NCBI RefSeq assembly: GCF_003330845.1
Contig: NZ_CP026121.1
Location: forward strand, 7,855,501 to 7,919,500
Length of the DNA: 64,000 nucleotides
Direction: 5' to 3'
From: Streptomyces sp. Go-475
GTDB lineage: Bacteria > Actinomycetota > Actinomycetes > Streptomycetales > Streptomycetaceae
The position numbers and the translations under genes were made by a program. Of this stretch, positions 35,385 to 47,879 are shown in pieces (position 1 is the first letter of the stretch; every line of letters starts with the position of its first letter). The notes below the pieces were generated by a model. That model saw only the letters and a list, made by a program, of their open reading frames with translations, made no database searches and was not told the DNA's origin.

Positions 35385-36313
35385 GCACTGTCTGATAATT
35401 GATCTTGTGGTGGGTCGAGGTGAGTTGACGGATGCGGCATGGGAGCGGATAGCGCCCCTGCTGCCTGGTGTTGACGGTCGTGGTCGTCCGTGGCGGGATC
35501 ACCGGCAGGTGATCAACGGGGTGTTGTGGCGGTTGCGGACCGGTGCTCCGTGGCGTGACCTGCCGGAACGCTACGGGCCGTGGCAGACGGTCTATGAACG
35601 GTTCGCCCGCTGGGAGGCGGACGGAACCTGGGCTCGCCTGCTCGAACAGGTCCATGTCCGCGACGACTCCGTCGGAGCCGTGGAGTGGACCGTGTCTGTC
35701 GACTCCACGATCAGCCGGGCCCATCAGCACGCCGCCGGAGCCCGCAAAAAGGGGCGGCGGCGGGGGACGAACTGGAAGATCCGGCACGCCCGTCGGCTGG
35801 CCAGGCGCTGGGCCGGTCCCGCGGCGGGCTGACCACCAAGCTCCACCTCGCCTGCGACGGCCGGGGCCTGCCCCTGGCTGTCGTCATCACGCCCGGCAAC
35901 GTCAACGACTCCACCGTCTTCGACATGGTCATGGACGAGCTGAGGGTGCCCCGGACCGGCGCCGGGCGCCCCCGCCTCAGGCCCGATGCGGTCGTCGCGG
36001 ACAAGGCGTACTCGTCCCGGGCGATCCGCCAGTCCCTGCGACGCAGAGGCATCCGGGCAGTGATCCCGGAGCGGGCGGACCAGAAGGCCAACCGCCTGCG
36101 GCGAGGGAAGGCCGGCGGCAGACCGCCGGCCTTCGACCGCGAGCTTTACAAGGCCCGCAACGTGATCGAACGCTGCTTCAACCGCCTCAAGCAGTTCCGC
36201 GCGATCGCCACCCGCTTCGACAAACTCGCCACCCGCTACAAGGCCGGAGTCCACCTCGCCGCACTCATCCTCTGGCTCCGCGAACCCAACCAAGATCCTT
36301 TGTCAGACAGGCC
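35385..36313 (+). mobile_element. IS5-family insertion sequence (929 bp)
   Basis: Imperfect terminal inverted repeats of about 23 bp match at 18 positions: left GCACTGTCTGATAATTGATC (35385 on), right GGCCTGTCTGACAAAGGATC read inwards from 36313. CTAG flanks both ends (35381-35384 and 36314-36317), in keeping with the CTAG/TA target choice of some IS5 subgroups. It carries one transposase in two frames. Confidence 0.9.
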
Positions 36314-36317
36314 CTAG
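35407..36317 (+). CDS. IS5-family transposase, two frames joined by -1 frameshift
   Basis: The first frame (35407-35832, starting MVGRGELTDAAWERIAPLLP) has the IS5 N-terminal domain and the first catalytic Asp (VSVDSTISRAHQHAAGARKK). The second frame, one base back, continues GAAAGDELEDPARP then ALGRSRGGLTTKLHLACDG, VVADKAYSSRAIR (second Asp) and ARNVIERCFNRLK (Glu), ending at the TAG of the flanking CTAG. The switch is at an A5G4 run (35746-35754), typical of programmed -1 frameshifting in this family. The element could be active. Confidence 0.88.
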
Positions 36318-36479
36318 GGCCCTTCTGATGGATCTCCGCGGCGTCGCGACGCCCGGCACGCCCGCTCGCCGCACGGGGCGAAGGGCCAGGTGGCTCCGCC
36401 ACATGACCCTCCGCCCCGCACGCCGATCGCACGCACCGAACGGCCGCTCCTTCTCCCACGGAGATCCATCAGAAGGGCC
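36318..36479. mobile_element. 162-bp MITE with perfect 21-bp inverted repeats
   Basis: Ends 36318-36338 and 36459-36479 are exact reverse complements (GGCCCTTCTGATGGATCTCC... inwards), with CTAG on both sides (36314-36317, 36480-36483). The interior has no coding frame. The outer GGCC-N2-TCTGA matches the right end of the neighbouring IS5 element, so a related transposase may move it. Confidence 0.85.
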
Positions 36480-38496: not shown

Positions 38497-39603
38497 TCAC
38501 CCGGTGCCGAGACCGGCGTCGTCGACCTCCTTCCGGCCCTCGGCCTTGAGGACCTTGTTGAGCGGAGTGAGGTCGTAGATGCCCTTCAGGTCGGGCTCCT
38601 CCAGCAGCCCGGCCTTGACCGCGTGGTCCGCCTCGGTGCGGAGGGTGGAGGCGAGCGGGTCGTCGAGGAAGGTGATGGACTTCCAGGCCGGGTCCAGGAC
38701 GTCGGCGGGCAGCGCCTTCCCGGACAGGGTCTCCAGGGCCTTGTTCGCGGAGGCCTTCGCCTGGTCCGGGTGGGCGTTGATCCACGCGTTGGTCTTCACC
38801 GAACCGCGCAGCACGGCCTCGACCACGTCCGGGTGCTGCTTCAGGAACTCCTGCCGCACGATGATGTTCGTGATCACGAACTTCTTGTCGGGCCACAGCG
38901 TCGACTCGTCGAGCAGCACCTTGCCGCCCTCGGCGACCAGCTTCGACGCGGTCGGCTCCGGCACCCACGCGCCGTCGATGGAACCGGACTTGTAGGCGTC
39001 GGGCGTGACCTTGTTGTCCGTGCGGACGACGGAGACATCGCCCCGGCCGCTCGCGGCGTCGACCTTCCACCCCTGGTCCTTGACCCAGTTGAGGAACGCG
39101 ACGTCCTGGGTGTTGCCGTGCTGCGGGGTGGCGATCTTCTTGCCCTTGACGTCCTGGAGGGACTTGATCCGCTCCGGGTTGACGACGAGCTTCACGCCGC
39201 CCGAGGCGGAGCCGCCGATGATGCGCAGGTTCTGGCCGTTCGACTTGGTGTAACCGTTGATGGCGGGGGAGGGGCCGATCCAGCCGATGTCGAGGGAGCC
39301 GGCGTTGAGCGCCTCGATCTCGGAGGGCCCGGCGTTGAACGTCGAGGGCTTGATGGTCGTGCCGCCGAGTTCCTTCTGGAAGATGCCCTCCTGGACGCCG
39401 ACGAGCGCGGTGGCGTGCGTGAGGTTGGGGAAGTAGCCGATCTTCACTTCGTCGGCGGAGAGCTTCTTCGCGCCCGCCGCGACCTGGCTCTGCTTGCCGT
39501 CGTCGGTGGACTGGGAACCGTAGCCGCAGGCGGTGAGCAGCAGCGGGAGCGCGGTCGCGGCGGCGAGGATGCGCAGGGTGGTGAGCGGTCTGGCGGCAGA
39601 CAC
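38497..39603 (-). CDS. SsuA-like sulfonate-binding lipoprotein (orphan)
   Basis: 368 residues from GTG, with an AGAGGAC ribosome-binding site. A lipoprotein signal (LRILAAATALPLLLTACGYG) leads into a type-2 binding fold: VKIGYFPNLTHATALVGVQEGIF, TFNAGPSEIEALNAGSLDIGWIGPSPAINGY, VNPERIKSLQDVKGKKIATPQHGNTQDVAF. This is the SsuA/TauA-type aliphatic-sulfonate family. No matching permease or ATPase is adjacent. The leader peptide about 200 bp upstream marks it as part of the sulfur-starvation response. Confidence 0.86.
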   Translation of the reverse strand: MSAARPLTTLRILAAATALPLLLTACGYGSQSTDDGKQSQVAAGAKKLSADEVKIGYFPNLTHATALVGVQEGIFQKELGGTTIKPSTFNAGPSEIEALNAGSLDIGWIGPSPAINGYTKSNGQNLRIIGGSASGGVKLVVNPERIKSLQDVKGKKIATPQHGNTQDVAFLNWVKDQGWKVDAASGRGDVSVVRTDNKVTPDAYKSGSIDGAWVPEPTASKLVAEGGKVLLDESTLWPDKKFVITNIIVRQEFLKQHPDVVEAVLRGSVKTNAWINAHPDQAKASANKALETLSGKALPADVLDPAWKSITFLDDPLASTLRTEADHAVKAGLLEEPDLKGIYDLTPLNKVLKAEGRKEVDDAGLGTG

Positions 39604-39803: not shown

Positions 39804-39905
39804 TCAGCCGCGTCGACAGATGGCGCTGGACGTCCGGCCCAGGTCGATGTGGCGACGCGAGGTCAGCAGGAGGAACGACCGGTCAGCGCGGTGGTGCGTG
39901 CCCAT
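39804..39905 (-). CDS. Cys-containing leader peptide 1 (upstream of SsuA-like gene)
   Basis: 33 codons, with AGGAGG six bases before the ATG. The C-terminal part LLLTSRRHIDLGRTSSAICR shares the pattern R(R/D)H(I/V)D(F/L)G(R/H)-SA-(I/A)C with the two other leaders here. It is followed at once by a GC hairpin. Streptomyces sulfur operons often begin with such putative leader peptides. I infer that ribosome behaviour at the terminal Cys codon reports cysteine supply. Confidence 0.75.
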   Translation of the reverse strand: MGTHHRADRSFLLLTSRRHIDLGRTSSAICRRG

Positions 39906-39921
39906 GGCCACCTCCTGGTTC

Positions 39922-39948
39922 CCTAGTTTTCCTACCTGGCTGATAGGG
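39922..39948 (+). promoter_or_regulatory. 27-bp sulfur-island motif, copy 1
   Basis: CCTAGTTTTCCTACC followed by TGGCTGATAGGG. It matches copy 2 (43099-43125) in 19 of 27 positions but in the opposite orientation relative to the gene. CCTA...TAGG ends make it partly palindromic. It lies 17 bp upstream of the leader-1 ATG, so it overlaps the likely promoter. Confidence 0.5.
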
Positions 39949-40042
39949 ATCGTGGCAGAAGGTCGCGCCCACCCCAAGAGGGCATTCACATACTGGACGC
40001 GACGATCTCGGTCTGTGGGACACCGGCCTCGGCTCGGGCCTG

Positions 40043-40501
40043 TCAGGGATTGGTCCAGGCTCCCGGCGTGTCGGTCAACGCGGAGACCTCGGGGGGCAGT
40101 TGGGCCGAGGCGACATCGGCGAGGGACACGCCTTCGAGGATCTCGCGCACATTGGACCGCAGCGCGATCCACAGGGGGAGCAGCGACTGGGCGGGGCCGG
40201 TGTACGACAGGTCCGGCGGGCGGACGCCGCGCACCGACACCAGCGGTCCGTCCACGACGCGGATGACGTCGGCGATGCTGATGGAGTCCGCGGGCTTGGC
40301 CAGCCGGTAGCCGCCGTTGCCGCCGCGCTGGCTGAGGATGAGGCCGCCCCGGCGCATGTCGTTCAGAATGCTCTCCAGGAACTTGTGCGGGATGTCCTGG
40401 GCGTCGGCGATGGCCTCGGCCTTCAGGGGCAGGTCGTCCCGGGACGCGGCGAGCTGCAGCGCGGCACGTACCGCGTAGTCCGCCCTGGCTGAGATCCGCA
40501 T
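40043..40501 (-). CDS. Rrf2-family regulator (CymR-like, no Fe-S cysteines)
   Basis: 152 residues starting MRISARADYAVRAALQLAASR, with winged-helix DNA-binding parts (LKAEAIADAQDIPHKFLESILNDMRRGGLILSQRGGNGGYRLAKP). The three clustered cysteines of IscR/NsrR are absent, so it is not an Fe-S sensor. CymR-type members repress sulfur uptake genes. It lies between the SsuA-like unit and the TauD-like gene and is the best local candidate to bind the 27-bp motif. Confidence 0.88.
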   Translation of the reverse strand: MRISARADYAVRAALQLAASRDDLPLKAEAIADAQDIPHKFLESILNDMRRGGLILSQRGGNGGYRLAKPADSISIADVIRVVDGPLVSVRGVRPPDLSYTGPAQSLLPLWIALRSNVREILEGVSLADVASAQLPPEVSALTDTPGAWTNP

Positions 40502-40592
40502 GCGTCCATTATCGCGTAGGCCCCCGGGCGGCATCCGCTCCGGGCGGGCGGGCGGCCGGGCAGGGGCCGGCATCCCGGCCCGGCCGAGCGGC

Positions 40593-41492
40593 TCAGGCCG
40601 CGGCGGGGGTGTAGTGGGAGGCGTCGTCGCCCTCGACGACGTGGCTGAGGGTGCCGTCGACGCCGGCGGGGACGTCGCCCGCGATGGTCACCCGGTGCAG
40701 GAGCCGGGGCAGGTCGCCGTAGTCGTCCGGGGCGTAGTGCTGGGTGATGCGGTTGTCGAACAGGACGACGTCGCCCGGGTTCCAGGCCACCCGCACGATG
40801 TTCTCCGGGCGGGTGACGTACGACTGGAAGAGGCGCAGCAGGTCGCGGGAGTCGGAGGGCCCGAGGCCGACGATGCTCTGGGCGAAGCCGCCGATGAACA
40901 GCCCGCGCTCCCCGGTCTCGGGGTGGACGCGGACGACGGGGTGCGCGGTGCGGTACTTCCGCGAGACGAACCGCCTGCGGTACTCGGCCGCCTTCTCGTT
41001 CCTGGGAGCCGCGTAGTCGTAGTCGTTGGTGTGCACCGCCCACAGCTTGTCGGCCAGTTCGCGCAGCGGTCCGGGCAGGTCCCGGTAGGCGGCACCGGCG
41101 TCGGCGATGAGGGTGTTGCCGCCGTAGGGCGGGATCACGAGGGCGCGCAGCGTGGACGCCTTCGGGGGCGTGCGGACGAAGGTGACGTCCGTGTGCCACT
41201 GGTTGGCGCGGATGCCCTCGTCGCTGTCGACGGGCAGGATCCGGGGCTGTCCCTCGACGGAGGAGACGGTGGGGTGCGCGGTGGTGAGCTCGCCGAAGAG
41301 GGCGGCGAAGCGGAGCTGGCCCGCGTCGTCGAGGTGCTGGTCGCGGAAGACCAGCGCCTTGTGTTCCAGCAGTGCCGAGTTGATCTCGTCGACGAGAGCG
41401 GGGCCGAGGTCGGTGCCGAGATCCACGCCGAGGATCTCGGCGCCGATGCGGCCGCCGATCCTGCGGATGCCGAGGCGGGTGCCGGTGGTCAT
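40593..41492 (-). CDS. TauD/TfdA-family alpha-ketoglutarate dioxygenase
   Basis: 299 residues. The Fe(II) facial triad is visible: HTD in NQWHTDVTFVRTPPKAS, and the distal His in LLHRVTIAGD. ILGVDLGTDLG and VFRDQHLD are family N-terminal blocks. TauD-type enzymes release sulfite from taurine or alkyl sulfates. It is downstream of the SfnB/DszC-like gene on the same strand, in a sulfur cluster, which supports a sulfonate or sulfate-ester substrate. Confidence 0.9.
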   Translation of the reverse strand: MTTGTRLGIRRIGGRIGAEILGVDLGTDLGPALVDEINSALLEHKALVFRDQHLDDAGQLRFAALFGELTTAHPTVSSVEGQPRILPVDSDEGIRANQWHTDVTFVRTPPKASTLRALVIPPYGGNTLIADAGAAYRDLPGPLRELADKLWAVHTNDYDYAAPRNEKAAEYRRRFVSRKYRTAHPVVRVHPETGERGLFIGGFAQSIVGLGPSDSRDLLRLFQSYVTRPENIVRVAWNPGDVVLFDNRITQHYAPDDYGDLPRLLHRVTIAGDVPAGVDGTLSHVVEGDDASHYTPAAA

Positions 41493-41562
41493 GTGCGGTG
41501 TCCTTTCAGGAGTTCGGGGAGGGGCCGGAACCCGGTGACGACCGCCGTGCGGGCCGGCCGGC

Positions 41563-42792
41563 TCAGACGGGCAGGCCGAAGGGAGGGTGGGCGCCGTTGA
41601 GGTGGTAGTCGCCGACTTCGCGGAGCCGGTGGGCGACGGGCTGGTAGAGGGTGTGGGTCCGGGCGTTGCGCCAGAAGCGGTCGAAGCCGAGCCGTGCGGA
41701 GGCGCAGCGGGTGCCGACGATGTCGAGGGCGCGGGTGGTGCACTCCTGCGCGGCCCTGGAGGCGGCGGCTTCGGCCATGGCGACGAGGACGGAGATCTCC
41801 GCGTACGCGTCGTGGGTGAGGCCCTCACCGCGGGCCAGTCCGCCCTGCACGGCTTCCAGCGCCTGCTCGGCGAGTGCGGCCGCCGAGCGGGTGAGGACGG
41901 TGAGTTCCCCGTAGGCGGTCAGCACCTGGGGGTCGTGGGGGGTGCCGACCGGCCAGGCGGGATGCCAGGGGGCGTGGCCCGCCCTGCTGTACTCGCGGGC
42001 TTCGGCGAGCACTCCCTCGGCCATGCCGAGCAGCAGCTGCACGGAGACAAGACGCCCGACCGGAGCCGCCAAGGCGGTCCGGGGCGACAGCGTGTCCTCG
42101 TCCACGGGCAGGGGGCCGAGCACCTCGTCGGCGGTGACCGGCACGGCGTCGAACTCCACGCTCGCGCCGGCGGCGAGCCGCTGGCCGAAGGGGTCGGCGT
42201 CGTCGTCGATCCGCACGCCGGAACGCGCGGGATCCACGACGACGGCGAGCGGTTCGCCGCTGCCCGCCCGTACGGCCCGCACGGCGAGGCGGTCGGCGAC
42301 CAGGGCACCGGTGGCGTAGCTCTGCCGGCCGTCGAGGACATGACCGCCGGCCTTCCTGACGAGCGTCAGGGGCGGTTCCTGAGGGCCGAAACCGGCCCCC
42401 CAGCACCACAGTTCGGCAGCGGACTGCCGCTCGGTCCGTGCGGCCCGGTCGGGCTCCGCGAAGAACCCGGCGCTCCACGACGTGACGTAGTGACAGCCGA
42501 GCAGCTGACCGATCGCGCCGTCGGCCGCGCCGATCTCCCGTATCACGGCGCAGGCCGTGGCCCAGTCCGCGCCGCCGCCCCCGGACTCGGCCGGTATCAG
42601 CAGCGTCAGCAGGCCCGCCTCGCGCAGCCGGGACACCTCGTCGAACGGGGCCTTGCCCGCCTGCTCCCTGGTCACCGCGTCCGTGGCCAGGTCGTCCGCC
42701 GCCTCCTGGGCCACGCGCAGCCAGTGCGCACGGCCGGGCACGGGCAGGTCGGGTTCCGCGGCGGGGCCGGACGGCGCGGTGGCAACGCCCAT
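41563..42792 (-). CDS. SfnB/DszC-like flavin-dependent monooxygenase (acyl-CoA dehydrogenase fold)
   Basis: 409 residues of acyl-CoA dehydrogenase fold: EVSRLREAGLLTLLIPAESGGGGADW, IGQLLGCHYVTSWSAGFFAEP, LDGRQSYATGALVADRLAV, and the C-terminal DIVGTRCASARLGFDRFWRNARTHTLYQPV. That end pattern is typical of the desulfurisation group (SfnB, DszC), which uses reduced flavin on organosulfur compounds. It follows leader peptide 2 by about 180 bp and precedes the TauD-like gene by 70 bp. Confidence 0.85.
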   Translation of the reverse strand: MGVATAPSGPAAEPDLPVPGRAHWLRVAQEAADDLATDAVTREQAGKAPFDEVSRLREAGLLTLLIPAESGGGGADWATACAVIREIGAADGAIGQLLGCHYVTSWSAGFFAEPDRAARTERQSAAELWCWGAGFGPQEPPLTLVRKAGGHVLDGRQSYATGALVADRLAVRAVRAGSGEPLAVVVDPARSGVRIDDDADPFGQRLAAGASVEFDAVPVTADEVLGPLPVDEDTLSPRTALAAPVGRLVSVQLLLGMAEGVLAEAREYSRAGHAPWHPAWPVGTPHDPQVLTAYGELTVLTRSAAALAEQALEAVQGGLARGEGLTHDAYAEISVLVAMAEAAASRAAQECTTRALDIVGTRCASARLGFDRFWRNARTHTLYQPVAHRLREVGDYHLNGAHPPFGLPV

Positions 42793-42972
42793 GGCGTGGG
42801 CTCCTCAAGGTCGGTGGCGGGGCGCGGCGCCGGAGCTCTCCCACCGGTCGGGCAGGTGCGGGTGGCCCGCGCGATGGGGTGAAGCGGCCGGAGCCGGCAG
42901 GGCTGTGGTCATGGGGACGTCCCGGAAAAGGAGGAGCGGAGCCTTGCGGGCGAACGCGTGAGCGGCGTGCCT

Positions 42973-43056
42973 CTATCCGCGACAGCAGGCGGCGCTGCCG
43001 ACGTGACCGAAGTCGACATGCCGACGACGAACGAGTCGTTGCTGCGTACGGGACAT
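42973..43056 (-). CDS. Cys-containing leader peptide 2 (upstream of SfnB/DszC-like gene)
   Basis: 27 codons from ATG 43056, with AGGA eight bases upstream; in-frame ATGs at 43062 and 43065 would add two or three residues. The peptide ends RRRHVDFGHVGSAACCRG, with two adjacent Cys codons just before the stop. It shares QQRLV-R-H-DFG-SAACC with leader 3. It leads the SfnB/DszC-TauD unit. No hairpin as clear as those after leaders 1 and 3 is seen, though GGGACGTCCC occurs downstream. Confidence 0.75.
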   Translation of the reverse strand: MSRTQQRLVRRRHVDFGHVGSAACCRG

Positions 43057-43089
43057 GTACATCATCCTGCGCACCCCCGTCGGACGCCG

Positions 43090-45156
43090 TCAAGGCTTCC
43101 CTAGTAAATCGATAGGAAAAGTAGGAAGGGTGGGTGGGGCGCACGCCGCGAGGGTCCGGCTGCCCTCCGCGGGCGTCGCCGTTCCGGCCTCGGTGGCGCT
43201 CAAGGTCCGCAGCAGCGCCCGGGCCACCGCGTCGTTCTGACGGAAGGCCGGGGCGTTCGTGCGGGGGCGGGCGAACGCCGCGACGGCCCGGCTGTTGGTG
43301 GGGGCGCCGAGGGCGATGCGGCGCGGATGGGGGCCGCCGAGGGCCGGGTCGATGACGTGGCCGTCGGCGGAGACGGCCAGCAGGCCGGAGCGGTGCGTGT
43401 GGGAGGGGTCGGCGATGACCTCCTCGGCGAGCGCGCCCTGCCGGTACAGGCCGCGCAGCAGCGGGTCCTCGGTGCGGGCCAGGGACGCGCCGGGCAGGTA
43501 CGCCTCGATGAGGGCCGTGGCGTGCACGGAACTGCCGGGGACGGTGGGGCTGGTGGCGGTGAACGTGCCCGTGGCGTCGTCGGTGCCGATCCGCATGCCC
43601 GCGCCGACGAAGCGCACGACACCGGCCCGCGACAGTGCCAGGAGCTGACGCAGCCGGAAGCCGGGCGGGCCGGAGGCGAGGAAGCTGAAGAAGCCGTGCC
43701 ACCAGCCGTCGAGGTCCTCGGCGACCGAGCGGGCGGTGAGACGGCCGGAGGCGACGAGGCGGGGCAGTTGGCCGTAGACGGAGAGCAGGGCGAGGAACGC
43801 GCCGAGGTCGGCGCTGAACTCCGGGTCCTCGCGGCGGGCGACGTCCTGGGCGATGTGGTCGCGCAGATGGTCCTGGAAGGCGTCCGGGGTGGGGAAGGAA
43901 ACGCCGTCGAGGGGGTGGTCGAGCGCCTCCAGGTCCAGCCGGTCCGCCGGGTCGGGCACGGCGCCGGCGACCAGGGCGGTCATGGCCTCGGAACGCCAGT
44001 ACAGCCGGTCGTAGGCGGCGGCGAAGTCCGGCCAGGGCAGGGTCGTGCGCTCGGGATGGGCGTGGAACAGCTCGTGGTAGTGGCCGAACCCGATCTCCTT
44101 GGCCATCAGGGGCCACACGTCGCGCCGCAGCTCCAGCGGGCGGCCCTCGGCGAGCAGGGCGTCGACCGCCGCGGGACCGAAGTACCGCGGCAGCGCGGGC
44201 CGGGGGCCCTGGAGCCGGTACCGGGTCTTGGAGTGGTACGGCACCCCGCGCCGGGATCCCACGTGCAGGACGGGCTCCCGGCCGGACGCGAGGTAGGTGA
44301 GGGAGCCGTCGGACTCGGTGCGGTACGTGCCGCCGCGGCCCTCGGTGAGCAGGGACATCAGGTCGATGAACGCCAGCCCGAAGCCGCGCACGAGGACGTG
44401 CTCGCCGGGCCGCAGCGCCGACAGGTCGGCGTCGGAGGAGAACTCCGGCGGGAGGTGGAAGCGGCCGTGGCGGCGGGCGAACGCGGCGTGGTCGCGGTGC
44501 CGGGCGTCGGGTGCGGCGCCGAGGTGGCCCTGGGTGAGCACCACCAGGTCGGCGGTGAGCGGGGTGGCGCGGTCGGCCAGGTGCACCCGCTGCGGGCCGT
44601 CCGGGGGGCCGGTGACCGCCGTCGCCGTGGTGCGGTGCCTCTCGACGGTGACGGACGGCGGCAGTTCGGCCAGCGCCCGGCGGAACACCCAGTCCAGATA
44701 GGCGCCCTGGGCCCGGCGGGTGGCGAAGTCGCTTCCCGACAGCGCGCGCAGTTCGGCGAGCACGTCCGGTTCGGCGGGCGGTGGGGGTCCCTCCTGCTCG
44801 AGCGAAGCCGAGAGCTCGGGGGAGCGCGGCGTGCGGCGCGGGCCGCCCCGGCCGGAGAACTGGGCGGCCCACTCGGCGAGTGAGGGGCCCGGCCGCACCG
44901 GGCCCTCGATGGTGGAGGACTCGTCGGTGAACAGGGTGACGTCCTCCGCCATGGAGTTCATCCGCAACAGGGGCGACTGGTCGTGCCGCCAGATCCGGCC
45001 GGGGCCGGGCGGATACGGATCCACCAGATGGACGCGCAACTCCCGTCGTCCGTCCCAGAGTTCGGGGGCGTTGGCCGCGACCCGCTCCAGCAGGCCGGTG
45101 GCCCGCGGGCCCGCTCCGACCACGACCAGGACGGCCGCGGAGGGGACGCCGCTCAC
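43090..45156 (-). CDS. FAD/NAD(P)-binding flavoprotein (FAD-NAD_binding_9 type)
   Basis: 688 residues. The N-terminal Rossmann motif is VLVVVGAGPRATGLLERVA, followed by HLVDPYPPGPGRIWRHDQSPLLRMNSMAEDVTLF, typical of large FAD/NAD(P)-binding proteins of unknown chemistry. A second nucleotide motif is HVLVRGFGLAFIDLMSLL. It may supply reduced flavin or reducing power to the monooxygenases. It overlaps the permease stop (ATGA). The last codons (PIDLLGKP) use the rare TTA and CTA and coincide with the 27-bp motif. Confidence 0.85.
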   Translation of the reverse strand: MSGVPSAAVLVVVGAGPRATGLLERVAANAPELWDGRRELRVHLVDPYPPGPGRIWRHDQSPLLRMNSMAEDVTLFTDESSTIEGPVRPGPSLAEWAAQFSGRGGPRRTPRSPELSASLEQEGPPPPAEPDVLAELRALSGSDFATRRAQGAYLDWVFRRALAELPPSVTVERHRTTATAVTGPPDGPQRVHLADRATPLTADLVVLTQGHLGAAPDARHRDHAAFARRHGRFHLPPEFSSDADLSALRPGEHVLVRGFGLAFIDLMSLLTEGRGGTYRTESDGSLTYLASGREPVLHVGSRRGVPYHSKTRYRLQGPRPALPRYFGPAAVDALLAEGRPLELRRDVWPLMAKEIGFGHYHELFHAHPERTTLPWPDFAAAYDRLYWRSEAMTALVAGAVPDPADRLDLEALDHPLDGVSFPTPDAFQDHLRDHIAQDVARREDPEFSADLGAFLALLSVYGQLPRLVASGRLTARSVAEDLDGWWHGFFSFLASGPPGFRLRQLLALSRAGVVRFVGAGMRIGTDDATGTFTATSPTVPGSSVHATALIEAYLPGASLARTEDPLLRGLYRQGALAEEVIADPSHTHRSGLLAVSADGHVIDPALGGPHPRRIALGAPTNSRAVAAFARPRTNAPAFRQNDAVARALLRTLSATEAGTATPAEGSRTLAACAPPTLPTFPIDLLGKP
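43099..43125 (-). promoter_or_regulatory. 27-bp sulfur-island motif, copy 2
   Basis: Minus-strand CCTACTTTTCCTATCGA followed by TTTACTAGGG, 43 bp upstream of leader 2. It overlaps the 3' end of the flavoprotein gene, where it forces rare TTA and CTA codons. It matches copy 1 in 19 of 27 positions. Confidence 0.5.
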
Positions 45157-46160
45157 CGGTCACCGCCGATCGCGGGACGGGCGTCGGCAGCCGTCACCGC
45201 GCCCCACCGGACGCGTACGGCGGAGATCCGGCGACGCAGCCGCTGCAGCGGGGTGGGCGGCAGCGCGCGGGAGGCGCCGCGCGCGTAGTACCGCTCGACG
45301 TGGTACTGACCCGCGCTGAGCACGCTGGTGACGGCGACGTACCAGAGGGTGGCGACCAGCAGCAGCGGGATGACCTGATAGGTCTGGTGGTAGATGAGCT
45401 GCGCCGAGTACAGCAGGTCGTGCACGGCCAGCACGCTGACGATGCTGGTGCCCTTGAGCGTGCCGATCAGCATGTTCCCGGCGGCCGGCACGATGGAGCG
45501 CATCGCCTGGGGGATGACGACGCGCCGCAGGGTGCGGTGCCGGCTCAGGCCCAGTGCCTGCGCCGCCTCGGTCTGCCCCGGGTCGACGGAGAGGATCCCG
45601 CCCCGCACCACCTCGGCGGCGTAGGCGGCCTCGTGCAGGGTGAGACCGATGACGGCGGTGAGCGTGGGGCCGAGCAGGTTCACCGTCTCGACGGTGACGA
45701 GCTGCGGACCGAACGGGATGCCGAGGCCCAGCGTGGGGTACAGCGCGCCGATGTTGAACCAGAACAGCAGCTGCACCAGCAGTGGTGTGGAGCGGAAGAC
45801 CCACACGTAGCCCCAGCTCAGCGTGCGCAGCACCGGGTTGGCGGAGAGCCGCGCCACCGCCAGCACGGTGCCCAGCAGGAAACCGAGCACCATCACGGCA
45901 CCGGTCAGCCACAGGGTCAGCAGCAGTCCGTCGAGTACGGCGGCGGTGGTGAAGTACCGGCCCACCACGTCCCATTGGAAGGCGTCGTTGCGGACGACGG
46001 AGTTGAGCACCATCGCGAACCCGAGCAGCGCGACGGCGGCGGTCAGCCGTCGGCCGAGGTGCCGGCGCGGCACGATCCGCGGCGGGTCCGGGGCGGGGGC
46101 AGCCGCCGGCTCGGGGGCTTTCGCGGCCGGGGCGGAGGTGACATCGGAAGGCGTGACCAT
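45153..46160 (-). CDS. polar amino-acid-type ABC permease (HisM family)
   Basis: 335 residues. A polar, Pro/Ala-rich N-terminus is followed by the His/Glu/Gln permease fold: [47 protein letters not shown], then the EAA loop EAAYAAEVVRGGILSVDPGQTEAAQALGLSRHRTLRRVVIPQAMRSIVPA. It closely resembles the permease at 49342 and probably shares the ATPase at 50304. GGAGAG lies nine bases before the ATG. It is first in its unit, divergent from leader 3. The 290-bp gap between them shows no gene. Confidence 0.88.
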   Translation of the reverse strand: MVTPSDVTSAPAAKAPEPAAAPAPDPPRIVPRRHLGRRLTAAVALLGFAMVLNSVVRNDAFQWDVVGRYFTTAAVLDGLLLTLWLTGAVMVLGFLLGTVLAVARLSANPVLRTLSWGYVWVFRSTPLLVQLLFWFNIGALYPTLGLGIPFGPQLVTVETVNLLGPTLTAVIGLTLHEAAYAAEVVRGGILSVDPGQTEAAQALGLSRHRTLRRVVIPQAMRSIVPAAGNMLIGTLKGTSIVSVLAVHDLLYSAQLIYHQTYQVIPLLLVATLWYVAVTSVLSAGQYHVERYYARGASRALPPTPLQRLRRRISAVRVRWGAVTAADARPAIGGDR

Positions 46161-46450
46161 GGGGAGGCTCTCCGGGGGCGAGGGGATCGCGGACGTGGGT
46201 GACCACCCGGAGGCACTCGCACAGGAGCGCAGACGCACGGGGACTGCGCGGACAGCGTGCCGCCGGGAGCCGGCGTCGTCACGTCGCCGCGTCCCTCAAC
46301 GCGGCCGGAGGGCTGCCGCGCGGGGCGGAGCCGATCCGGCACCGATCGTACGGGCCCACCGCGCGGATGTGTCAACAACCCTGGGCGCACGGCGGTCCGG
46401 CATCCGGGCGACGCTTGACGCGGAGCAGGAGGTACTGCTCAAGTAATCGC

Positions 46451-46528
46451 ATGAACGCCCAGCAGCGCTTGGTCTCGCGCGACCACATCGACTTCGGTCG
46501 GGTGTGGTCCGCGGCGTGTTGCGCCTGA
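46451..46528 (+). CDS. Cys-containing leader peptide 3 (upstream of SsuD-like operon)
   Basis: 25 codons starting MNAQQRLVSRDHIDFGRVW and ending SAACCA, with Cys-Cys one residue before the stop. The pattern matches leader 2. The only strong Shine-Dalgarno (AGGAGG, 46427-46432) is too far upstream and sits in the loop of an AGCAG/CTGCT hairpin. A 6-bp GC hairpin starts 10 bp after the stop. The SsuD-like gene starts 223 bp downstream; nothing else is seen between them. Confidence 0.72.
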   Translation: MNAQQRLVSRDHIDFGRVWSAACCA

Positions 46529-46537
46529 CTCGGCAGC

Positions 46538-46555
46538 GGGCCGTCTGACCGGCCC
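46538..46555 (+). terminator. hairpin after leader peptide 3 (candidate attenuator)
   Basis: GGGCCG-tctgac-CGGCCC followed by TTCCCTCCCT, 10 bp after the leader stop. It is similar in placement to the hairpin after leader 1. Confidence 0.5.
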
Positions 46556-46751
46556 TTCCCTCCCTCGGTGACCCCGTCGCGGGCCGAGTTCTCTCTTCGT
46601 CACGCGCGCTGCCGCACCCCTGCTTCCTCCGACGCCCGGCGTCGTCACGCCCGCACCGCCGCGTCCTCCTGACGCTTCCTCACCCATGCCCGTACGCAGG
46701 GCCGTTCCGTCATGCCCGCGTCCGGTCGCTCCCGAAAGGGGCCCCACTGTC

Positions 46752-47879
46752 ATGCCCGTGGAATTCCTCGGCATCGCCGCCACCAACGACGGCTCCGAAA
46801 CCACCCCGCGCTCCGGCGCCGCCTTCGACAAGGAGTACACGCTCCGGCTCGCCCGCGCGCACGAGGAGCACGGCTGGGACCGCGTGCTGTTCGCCTACGG
46901 CTCGGGTTCACCGGACCCGGCGCCGGCCGCCGCGTACATCGCGAGCCGGCTGGACCGGCTGCAGATCCTGCTCGCCCACCGGCCCAACGTCTCGTACCCG
47001 ACGTTCGCCGCGAAGACCTTCGCCACCCTCGACCAGATCAGTGAGGGCCGGCTGACCGTGCACTTCATCACCGGCGGCAACGACCACGAACAGGGCCGGG
47101 AGGGCGACACCCTCACCAAGGACGAGCGGTACGCCCGCACCCGCGAGTACATCCGGCTCGTCAAGAAGATCTGGACCACCCGCGAACCCTTCGACCACGA
47201 GGGCGAGCACTACCGCTTCCACGACTTCGTCAGCGACGTCTTCCCCGTCCAGCAGCCCCGCCCGGACGTCTCGTTCGGCGGCTCGTCACCGGCCGCGTAC
47301 GCCGCCGGGGGCGCCGAGGCCGACATCTACTGCCTGTGGGGCGAGCCCTTGGCGAGGACCGCCGAGCAGATCGAGAACGTGCGGGCCGCCGCGCGGGCCG
47401 CGGGCCGCACCGACGTCCCCCGCATCCAGGTCGCGTTCCGCCCGATCATCGCCCCGACCGAGGAACTGGCCTGGGAGAAGGCCCATCGCACGGTCGGCGC
47501 CATCCGGGAACGGCGCGAGGCGGGGCTCGTACGGCACCACCGCGGCGACGCCCCGGAGAACACCGGGTCGCGGCGGCTGATCGCCATCGCCGAGGCGGGG
47601 GAGCGTTACGACCGCGCCCTGTGGACCCCGACCGCGGCCGCGACCGGGGGCGCGGGCAACTCCAACGCGCTCGTCGGCACCCCGGAGACGGTCGCCCGGG
47701 CGCTCCTCGACTACTACGACCTCGGCGTCGACATCCTCTCCGCCCGCGGCTACGACCTGCTGGACGACGCCATCGACTTCGGCCGGTACGTGATCCCGAT
47801 CGTCCGCGAGGAGGTCGCCAAGCGCGACGCCGAGCGCGCGGCACGCGGCACACGGGTCCCCGCGGCGGTGAACGCGTGA
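46752..47879 (+). CDS. SsuD-like FMNH2-dependent alkanesulfonate monooxygenase
   Basis: 375 residues of the luciferase-like family: EFLGIAATNDGSET, GWDRVLFAYGSGSPDPAPAA, LAHRPNVSYPTFAAKTFATLDQISEGRLTVHFITGGNDHEQGREGD. That last block is typical of SsuD/MsuD sulfonate monooxygenases. It would oxidise alkanesulfonates to aldehyde and sulfite with reduced FMN. It leads an operon with a GNAT, a binding protein, a permease, an ATPase and a second binding protein. No dedicated flavin reductase is adjacent. Confidence 0.88.
   Translation: MPVEFLGIAATNDGSETTPRSGAAFDKEYTLRLARAHEEHGWDRVLFAYGSGSPDPAPAAAYIASRLDRLQILLAHRPNVSYPTFAAKTFATLDQISEGRLTVHFITGGNDHEQGREGDTLTKDERYARTREYIRLVKKIWTTREPFDHEGEHYRFHDFVSDVFPVQQPRPDVSFGGSSPAAYAAGGAEADIYCLWGEPLARTAEQIENVRAAARAAGRTDVPRIQVAFRPIIAPTEELAWEKAHRTVGAIRERREAGLVRHHRGDAPENTGSRRLIAIAEAGERYDRALWTPTAAATGGAGNSNALVGTPETVARALLDYYDLGVDILSARGYDLLDDAIDFGRYVIPIVREEVAKRDAERAARGTRVPAAVNA

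Follow-up and report, generated by a model that had tools for sequence, protein, structure and literature searches.

The window, a 64,000-nucleotide stretch of the Streptomyces sp. Go-475 genome, carries three short leader ORFs ahead of genes for organosulfur use, together with a regulator gene and two copies of a putative operator. Positions within the leader peptides are given along the register R-R-H1-[IV]-D3-[LF]-x-R6-x-x-S-A-x-C12, which occurs in Streptomyces and in other Actinomycete families. The features are as follows.

38497 to 39603, minus strand: SsuA-family sulfonate-binding protein, in the unit behind leader 1 (TIGR01728, 204.9 bits, cut-off 163.5)
39804 to 39905, minus strand: leader 1 ORF, 33 amino acids, MGTHHRADRSFLLLTSRRHIDLGRTSSAICRRG, with a single Cys codon, TGT, at register 12
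39929 to 39949, no strand assigned: putative 21-bp operator TYCCTA-N9-TAGGRA, upstream of leader 1
40043 to 40501, minus strand: CymR-like regulator of the Rrf2 family, between leaders 1 and 2, proposed to bind the operator
40593 to 41492, minus strand: TauD-like dioxygenase, in the unit behind leader 2 (family scan)
41563 to 42792, minus strand: DszC/SfnB-like flavin monooxygenase, in the unit behind leader 2 (family scan)
42805 to 42912, minus strand: 35-codon ORF that begins MTTALPAPA, between leader 2 and the DszC-like gene
42973 to 43056, minus strand: leader 2 ORF, 27 amino acids, MSRTQQRLVRRRHVDFGHVGSAACCRG, with TGC-TGT at register 12-13 and a leaderless-type start
43098 to 43118, no strand assigned: putative 21-bp operator TYCCTA-N9-TAGGRA, upstream of leader 2 and 4 nt before its -35 box
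46451 to 46528, plus strand: leader 3 ORF, 25 amino acids, MNAQQRLVSRDHIDFGRVWSAACCA, with TGT-TGC at register 12-13 and a probable leaderless start
46529 to 46590, plus strand: conserved RNA block after the stop of leader 3, in which two hairpins are possible
46752 to 47879, plus strand: SsuD-like LLM monooxygenase, in the unit behind leader 3 (family scan)

Between leaders 2 and 3 (43090-46238, minus strand) lie the genes of an FAD-NAD(P)-binding protein and of an ABC permease of the cystine type, the latter assigned below cut-off, and ORFs that by eye resemble an IS5-type transposase lie at 35543-36328 on the plus strand.

The three ORFs translate in frame exactly as the initial annotation had claimed, and they are real, conserved leader ORFs. 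We sought their orthologues in 246 genomes of the genus and took 30 loci for each leader. The orthologues used numbered 26 for leader 1, 28 for leader 2 and 29 for leader 3, and in these the frame and the Cys tail were kept, in line with the earlier assignment of the peptides to a common family with Cys codons near the stop. Seven of the 90 loci were set aside. Four of these (L134, L143, L170 and L220) do carry the leader, placed off-centre, and the other three are without an intact orthologous leader by the motifs used: L139 shows the neighbouring leader 2 only, L154 shows none, and L181 has a copy without a nearby stop. Within the core, pairwise differences at the first, second and third codon positions averaged 0.068, 0.019 and 0.214 for leader 1, 0.035, 0.053 and 0.154 for leader 2, and 0.063, 0.009 and 0.175 for leader 3. 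Over the 16 core codons of leaders 1-3, variable sites amounted to 7/48, 4/48 and 25/48 at the three positions (P = 6e-7, a rough value because the orthologous sequences are related and are not independent samples). Among the ten paralogues within the genome, 140 of 315 codon pairs for the same residue used different codons, and the ungapped identity of the flanks was 0.28 and 0.34. Judged from these patterns of substitution, selection on the leaders acts on the amino acids.

We also compared the peptides with curated families. Leader 1 scored 34.4 bits against the NCBIfam model NF042934 ('putative leader peptide') and passed its curated cut-off of 27, which was missed by leader 2 (14.1 bits) and by leader 3 (no listed match). 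Against NF042936 (Ms4527A Cys-rich leader), leaders 1, 2 and 3 scored 20.6, 19.4 and 23.4 bits, all below the curated cut-off of 45, with E-values of 3e-5 to 6e-4. A Pfam search returned no family for the three peptides, and an Rfam search of the 64-kb window returned no match.

The initial annotation had assigned an organosulfur unit to each leader, and both the family scans and the orthologous loci bear this out. An SsuA-family gene lies behind leader 1 in all 26 orthologous loci, a DszC-like gene no further than 1.3 kb beyond leader 2 in 25 of 28, and an SsuD-like gene behind leader 3 in 27 of 29; the DszC/SfnB-like, TauD-like and SsuD-like proteins have clear E-values and scores below the equivalog cut-offs. 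In 21 of the 28 leader 2 loci, the leader is followed by a gene for a winged-helix regulator, which precedes the DszC-like gene wherever the latter was seen, and the 35-codon ORF at 42805-42912 is probably a remnant of this regulator gene of the relatives. In 14 of 15 genomes with a strong match to each of leaders 2 and 3 on one contig (drawn from 30 genomes with a strong leader 2), the two leaders are divergent, in keeping with the previously proposed shared system in a divergent arrangement, and the gap between them ranges from 50 to 3275 nt. In five relatives they are only 50-138 nt apart. The alignment across Streptomyces that the initial annotation had called for showed varying synonymous sites, a conserved peptide frame and conserved co-location with sulfur genes.

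The three leaders it had described are all present, but this set was too small. A profile search of the genome (8.57 Mb, one contig) returned eight NF042934 matches over the cut-off, leader 1 included, so that, with leaders 2 and 3, the genome has at least ten. The seven further leaders precede, respectively, a ThiS/MoaD-like small protein (by eye) with a PLP enzyme of the cysteine synthase type (the family being assigned by scanning the orthologue in locus L052), a cysteine dioxygenase, a symporter of the sodium:dicarboxylate family, a nitrite/sulfite reductase, an FMN reductase followed by an SsuD-like monooxygenase (the latter by eye), an ABC permease, and a rhodanese-type sulfurtransferase. 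Eight of the 10 leaders stand before genes of sulfur or cysteine metabolism, as assigned by family or by eye, and two stand before transporters; these two are left out of the eight because the substrates of the symporter and the permease are not established. Across the class, leader-model matches were found at an E-value of 1e-3 in 199 of 296 genomes and in 79 of the 114 sampled genera, and over the cut-off in 177 of the 296 genomes. In a phylum-wide draw, 12 of 198 genomes matched at 1e-4, all 12 within the class. None of 14 control genomes had a match at 1e-4; at an E-value of 10, 10 of the 14 had one, none over the cut-off. The leaders are a real, conserved, genome-wide family. Some other Actinomycete families (f68-f70) have up to 13 leader-model matches per genome.

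The register of these peptides is rigid. Among 80 leaders, D3 was present in all 80, R6 in 71 and C12 in 72, the last share being conditional because the motifs that picked this set (79 to 80 leaders) and the set of 269 require a tail Cys. In 25 of the 269 leaders, the core is whole and there is no Cys at 12, only C8 (the HIDLxRVC- type, which includes loci L026, L029, L327, L336 and L340); in L026, the locus of this type that was scanned, the gene behind the leader encodes a GST_C_2 protein. In distant peptides of the leader 3 type, the peptide is kept and the sequence after the stop differs.

The codon at C12 is also nearly fixed. It is TGT in 61 of the 72 leaders of the register set, in 9 of the 10 leaders of this genome against a background of 207 TGT among 1550 Cys codons (P = 1e-7), in every one of 26 loci spread over nine families, and, counted over the whole collection, in 204 of 244 leaders; the ratio of TGT to TGC at C12 is unaffected by the tail-Cys requirement of the motifs. 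At other registers, the fraction of TGT was 0.11 at 8 and 11, 0.30 at 5, 0.43 at 10, 0.45 at 13, and 0.62 at 14 (13 cases only). The 40 TGC codons at C12 include 18 in the order TGC-TGT, 13 in leaders of the kind that precedes a winged-helix regulator, and four or more scattered cases, among them L277 (leader 1 type) and L187 (leader 3 type). The Cys codons in general had been described before as lying close to the stop, which is correct, but there is no run of them: leader 1 has one Cys and leaders 2 and 3 have two each, and the hallmark is a conserved core with a near-fixed UGU.

In the accessible portion of a theoretical study (PMC1183508), codon bias in attenuators is attributed to selective charging of isoacceptors. 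We set this cause aside for the UGU bias: ARAGORN finds a single tRNA-Cys gene in the genome, with anticodon GCA, so that selective charging does not seem to apply. Rfam gave 69 tRNA hits, four of which had no clear anticodon in ARAGORN; one of the four can be read by eye as Gly-UCC, and the remaining three have scores of 34-40 bits and bear no resemblance to tRNA-Cys. A second tRNA-Cys isoacceptor in the genome is thus unlikely. At one low-scoring Rfam hit (L435, genome 4518538-4518619), ARAGORN called a tRNA with an undefined anticodon. If, as it appears, a single tRNA-Cys serves both Cys codons, one speculation is that the bias towards UGU stems not from selective charging but from codon-anticodon kinetics or the identity of the RNA.

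Promoter geometry was predicted from the sequence. A [TC]ANNNT box lies 6-7 nt before the start codon in 7 of the 10 leaders of the genome, compared with 2.1% of background positions (P = 2e-10), and several have a TTGAC-type -35 box 36-37 nt before the start. This placement of the -10 box suggests that transcription starts at the start codon. Leader 2 fits the leaderless geometry, with CAGGAT 7 nt and TTGACG 37 nt before its ATG. Leader 3 fits it less well: its -35 box, TTGACG, lies 36 nt before the ATG, and a weak -10 box, TCAAGT, was recognized by eye outside the [TC]ANNNT pattern; the cysteine dioxygenase leader likewise has a -35 box and no -10 box by this pattern. Leader 1 is the exception, since it has an AGGAGG Shine-Dalgarno sequence before its start and is not of the leaderless type.

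The initial annotation had placed GC hairpins shortly after leaders 1 and 3. A hairpin is indeed present after leader 1, but orthologues do not conserve the 24 nt that follow the stop, and we set this hairpin aside. Mean pairwise differences over the 24 nt after the stop were approximately 0.6 for leader 1, 0.5 for leader 2 and 0.14 for leader 3; compared in this way across orthologues, the RNA past the stop is not conserved for leaders 1 and 2. Hairpins are therefore not the common element they were taken for, and only the downstream RNA of leader 3 is conserved. Two mutually exclusive folds can be drawn in the block after leader 3, a local one that stops short of TTCTCTCTTC, at -22.7 kcal/mol, and a long-range one, at -20.1 kcal/mol; without constraints, the optimum (-30.6) is an extended long-range fold. 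Pairing was kept in 98.4% and 93.8% of the alignment cells for the local and the long-range fold, respectively (alignment A2, 23 of the 29 leader 3 loci, with L209, L211 and L221 left out for indels and duplicates removed). The local fold showed no double-sided change and the long-range fold showed one, both within the range of shuffles; the block is conserved, yet without covariation beyond shuffles the folds do not decide for or against an attenuator. The skew of C over G after the leader stops was 0.24 (n = 78), compared with 0.105 for 168 upstream regions that lack a leader core (P = 1e-12). Such C-rich, G-poor RNA fits, suggestively, Rho-dependent termination that is held off by the ribosome. 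Unmasking of the downstream Shine-Dalgarno sequence by a stalled ribosome was not supported; a simple-fold model of leaders 1-3 gave this sequence much the same accessibility whether the ribosome stood at C12 or at the stop.

A second element, overlooked by the initial annotation, precedes leaders 1 and 2, namely the palindrome TYCCTA-N9-TAGGRA with the Rrf2 regulator gene nearby. The pattern has two exact copies in the 8.57-Mb genome, those before leaders 1 and 2, and 8 of the 10 leaders are without an exact match. In 121 genomes of the genus, it occurred exactly at 63 sites in 38 genomes, compared with 26 sites in 23 genomes for a control pattern, so some of the 63 sites must be due to chance. 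By hand inspection, 32 of the 63 have a leader core within approximately 300 nt, a further 17 adjoin a gene of the DszC, SsuA or Rrf2 type, and the remaining 14 are near neither. The operator and a close Rrf2 orthologue (at least 73% identity) were found together in 29 genomes, the orthologue only in 15, the operator only in 9 and neither in 68 (P = 1e-9), whereas the control pattern did not co-occur with the orthologue (P = 0.15). Among 80 named loci, all from Streptomyces and chosen by the presence of the Rrf2 protein, 74 contain a total of 115 operator sites with at most one mismatch; the reversed pattern gave no site in these loci, and four other spacers together gave one. Of these 115 operators, 81 lie within 240 nt of a leader core, with 76-78 nt before the H codon as the commonest distance, and 34 have no core within that distance. 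The leader 2, regulator-leading and HIDLxRVC- types all have the operator in at least some genomes. The Rrf2 protein passes the superfamily model TIGR00738 (109, cut-off 73.3); its best equivalog-type match is the CymR model NF047409, at 84.5 bits and below the cut-off of 195. It contains no cysteine and therefore has no Fe-S ligands of the usual kind. From this distribution of sites, we infer that the CymR-like protein acts on the promoters in front of leaders 1 and 2 via TYCCTA-N9-TAGGRA, which would make the pair a candidate regulator and operator of organosulfur use by Streptomyces.

With selection at the level of the frame, a fixed register, a UGU bias, the promoter geometry and an operator all read from sequence comparisons, the three ORFs are quite probably ribosome-mediated, cis-acting cysteine attenuators within a two-layer scheme. 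The cysteine-attenuator reading of the initial annotation is likely and the best explanation, although it had missed the genome-wide extent and the hairpins did not prove to be the common element. According to the scheme, RNA polymerase would start at or near the AUG (leaders 2 and 3 being leaderless), and the ribosome would translate the short leader peptide. When charged Cys-tRNA is scarce, the ribosome would pause at the Cys codons before the stop, above all at UGU, and the downstream sulfur-scavenging genes would be expressed. When cysteine is plentiful, the ribosome would leave, and the C-rich, G-poor untranslated stretch would lead to early termination, presumably of the Rho type, or to poor downstream translation. 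At least ten leaders would respond together, and the CymR-like Rrf2 protein at the promoters of leaders 1 and 2 would add the second layer. In this scheme, stalling, cysteine as the signal, the direction of the response, and the roles of Rho and of Rrf2 binding are all conjectural.

It is conceivable, and of the alternatives the one we take most seriously without favouring it, that the Cys codon alone is insufficient and that the core R-R-H-x-D-L-x-R, which lies 6-13 residues behind it, helps stalling from within the ribosome tunnel as a nascent-chain arrest sequence. In the core, the amino acids have been conserved and the synonymous sites have changed; Cys occupies one register in 72 of 80 leaders, as expected of an amino-acid constraint at a fixed distance; leaders of the subfamily that lacks C12 retain the core as well; and the peptide stays where the downstream RNA diverges. 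The amino-acid core suggests a nascent-chain role, but common descent with slow change could also have preserved it. A classical transcription attenuator, in which translation of the leader chooses between a terminator and an antiterminator hairpin, seems unlikely; the conserved block of leader 3 with its two exclusive folds would suit it, but the folds do not covary beyond shuffles, leaders 1 and 2 are not followed by conserved RNA, and Rfam has no match in the window.

Strong amino-acid conservation would equally be expected if the peptides acted in trans as small proteins, with the Cys tail serving chemistry and not sensing. We consider this improbable, since there are at least ten paralogues, each directly before a different gene set, and since the rare UGU is favoured at one register, for which a protein product has no need. 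Even harder to credit is the idea that the ORFs are chance readings over promoter or operator DNA, with the palindrome as the sole functional element: the operator is also found without a leader, but the constraint is frame-specific (P = 6e-7, a rough figure for related sequences) and 8 of the 10 leaders have no exact operator match.

Cysteine attenuation by the translating ribosome thus remains the preferred reading, and it would bring Streptomyces and, judged by sequence, much of the class under the kind of ribosome-based control by cysteine known from mycobacteria. It also makes two points sharply testable, namely the importance of the peptide core and the interchangeability of UGU and UGC. 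More tentatively, we speculate that the leaders descend from an ancient Actinomycete-wide sensor in which the tunnel core R-R-H-x-D-[LF]-x-R and a UGU nine codons after the Asp jointly stall the ribosome. If this speculation is true, then the polycysteine leaders of the mycobacterial type would be a derived, amplified form, and the CymR-like operator layer would have joined on in Streptomyces.

Mycobacteria reportedly use polycysteine leaderless short ORFs as attenuators (a finding said to be that of Canestrari and colleagues from 2020), in which the downstream Shine-Dalgarno sequence is said to be sequestered and freed by the stalled ribosome. As far as the accounts of that system go, the Streptomyces leaders share with it a short ORF that heads sulfur genes, terminal Cys codons, many loci per genome and the leaderless start, which is predicted here from promoter geometry, and both kinds of leader have an RRAVDLCR-type core. 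In contrast to what those accounts describe, the Streptomyces leaders have one or two Cys and no Cys run, a near-fixed UGU at register 12, a Shine-Dalgarno start in leader 1, and a putative Rrf2 operator at some of the promoters. Polycysteine leaders of the MLTKRRAVDLCRVAGCCCCCCSC type occur in one genus of another family, and in one genome of that genus (L048) the leader precedes a sulfurtransferase that matches PDB 3aax with 585 bits. We take the 3aax protein to be mycobacterial and infer that this genus is Mycobacterium. The Streptomyces leader QADLTKRRAVDLCRVAAMLCRTF precedes a sulfurtransferase gene homologous to that of L048, and two further families have single-Cys leaders before a homologous sulfurtransferase (L357, L373-L375); for the majority of the other loci from the polycysteine genus, a different protein is encoded by the first ORF picked.

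The available text of a 2015 report describes a small ORF with a Cys tail and ribosome occupancy, located upstream of cysA2 in mycobacteria (PMC4633059). Seliverstov et al. (2005), in the sections at hand, describe Cys-tailed leader ORFs without a terminator in Mycobacterium, Propionibacterium and Bifidobacterium and suggest Rho for the mycobacterial cys leaders; their candidates, to the same extent, are Cys-codon runs with no Streptomyces cys leader among them (PMC1262725). A CymR-like Rrf2 protein has been proposed to control cysteine or sulfur metabolism in Rhodococcus (PMC8557817, in part), and the Streptomyces regulator belongs to the same Rrf2 family as this protein and as CymR of Firmicutes. 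According to the same partial source, the Rhodococcus gene does not lie inside a sulfur gene set, whereas the Streptomyces gene does; the likeness of the two is one of protein family. The passage located in a paper on staphylococcal CymR contained no operator for comparison. In a literature search mostly without subscription papers, no title or abstract among the matches listed dealt with Cys leaders of Streptomyces sulfur operons. As for the curated models, leader 1 and seven other leaders of the genome pass NF042934 (cis_reg_atten) and leaders 2 and 3 do not, and all three match NF042936 (Ms4527A), but at 19-23 bits against a cut-off of 45. The system is thus known in kind, from the mycobacterial attenuators and the NCBIfam leader model, and the new points here, as far as we have seen, appear to be a form with a single Cys, a UGU codon that is nearly fixed, and a proposed layer of control through an Rrf2 operator.
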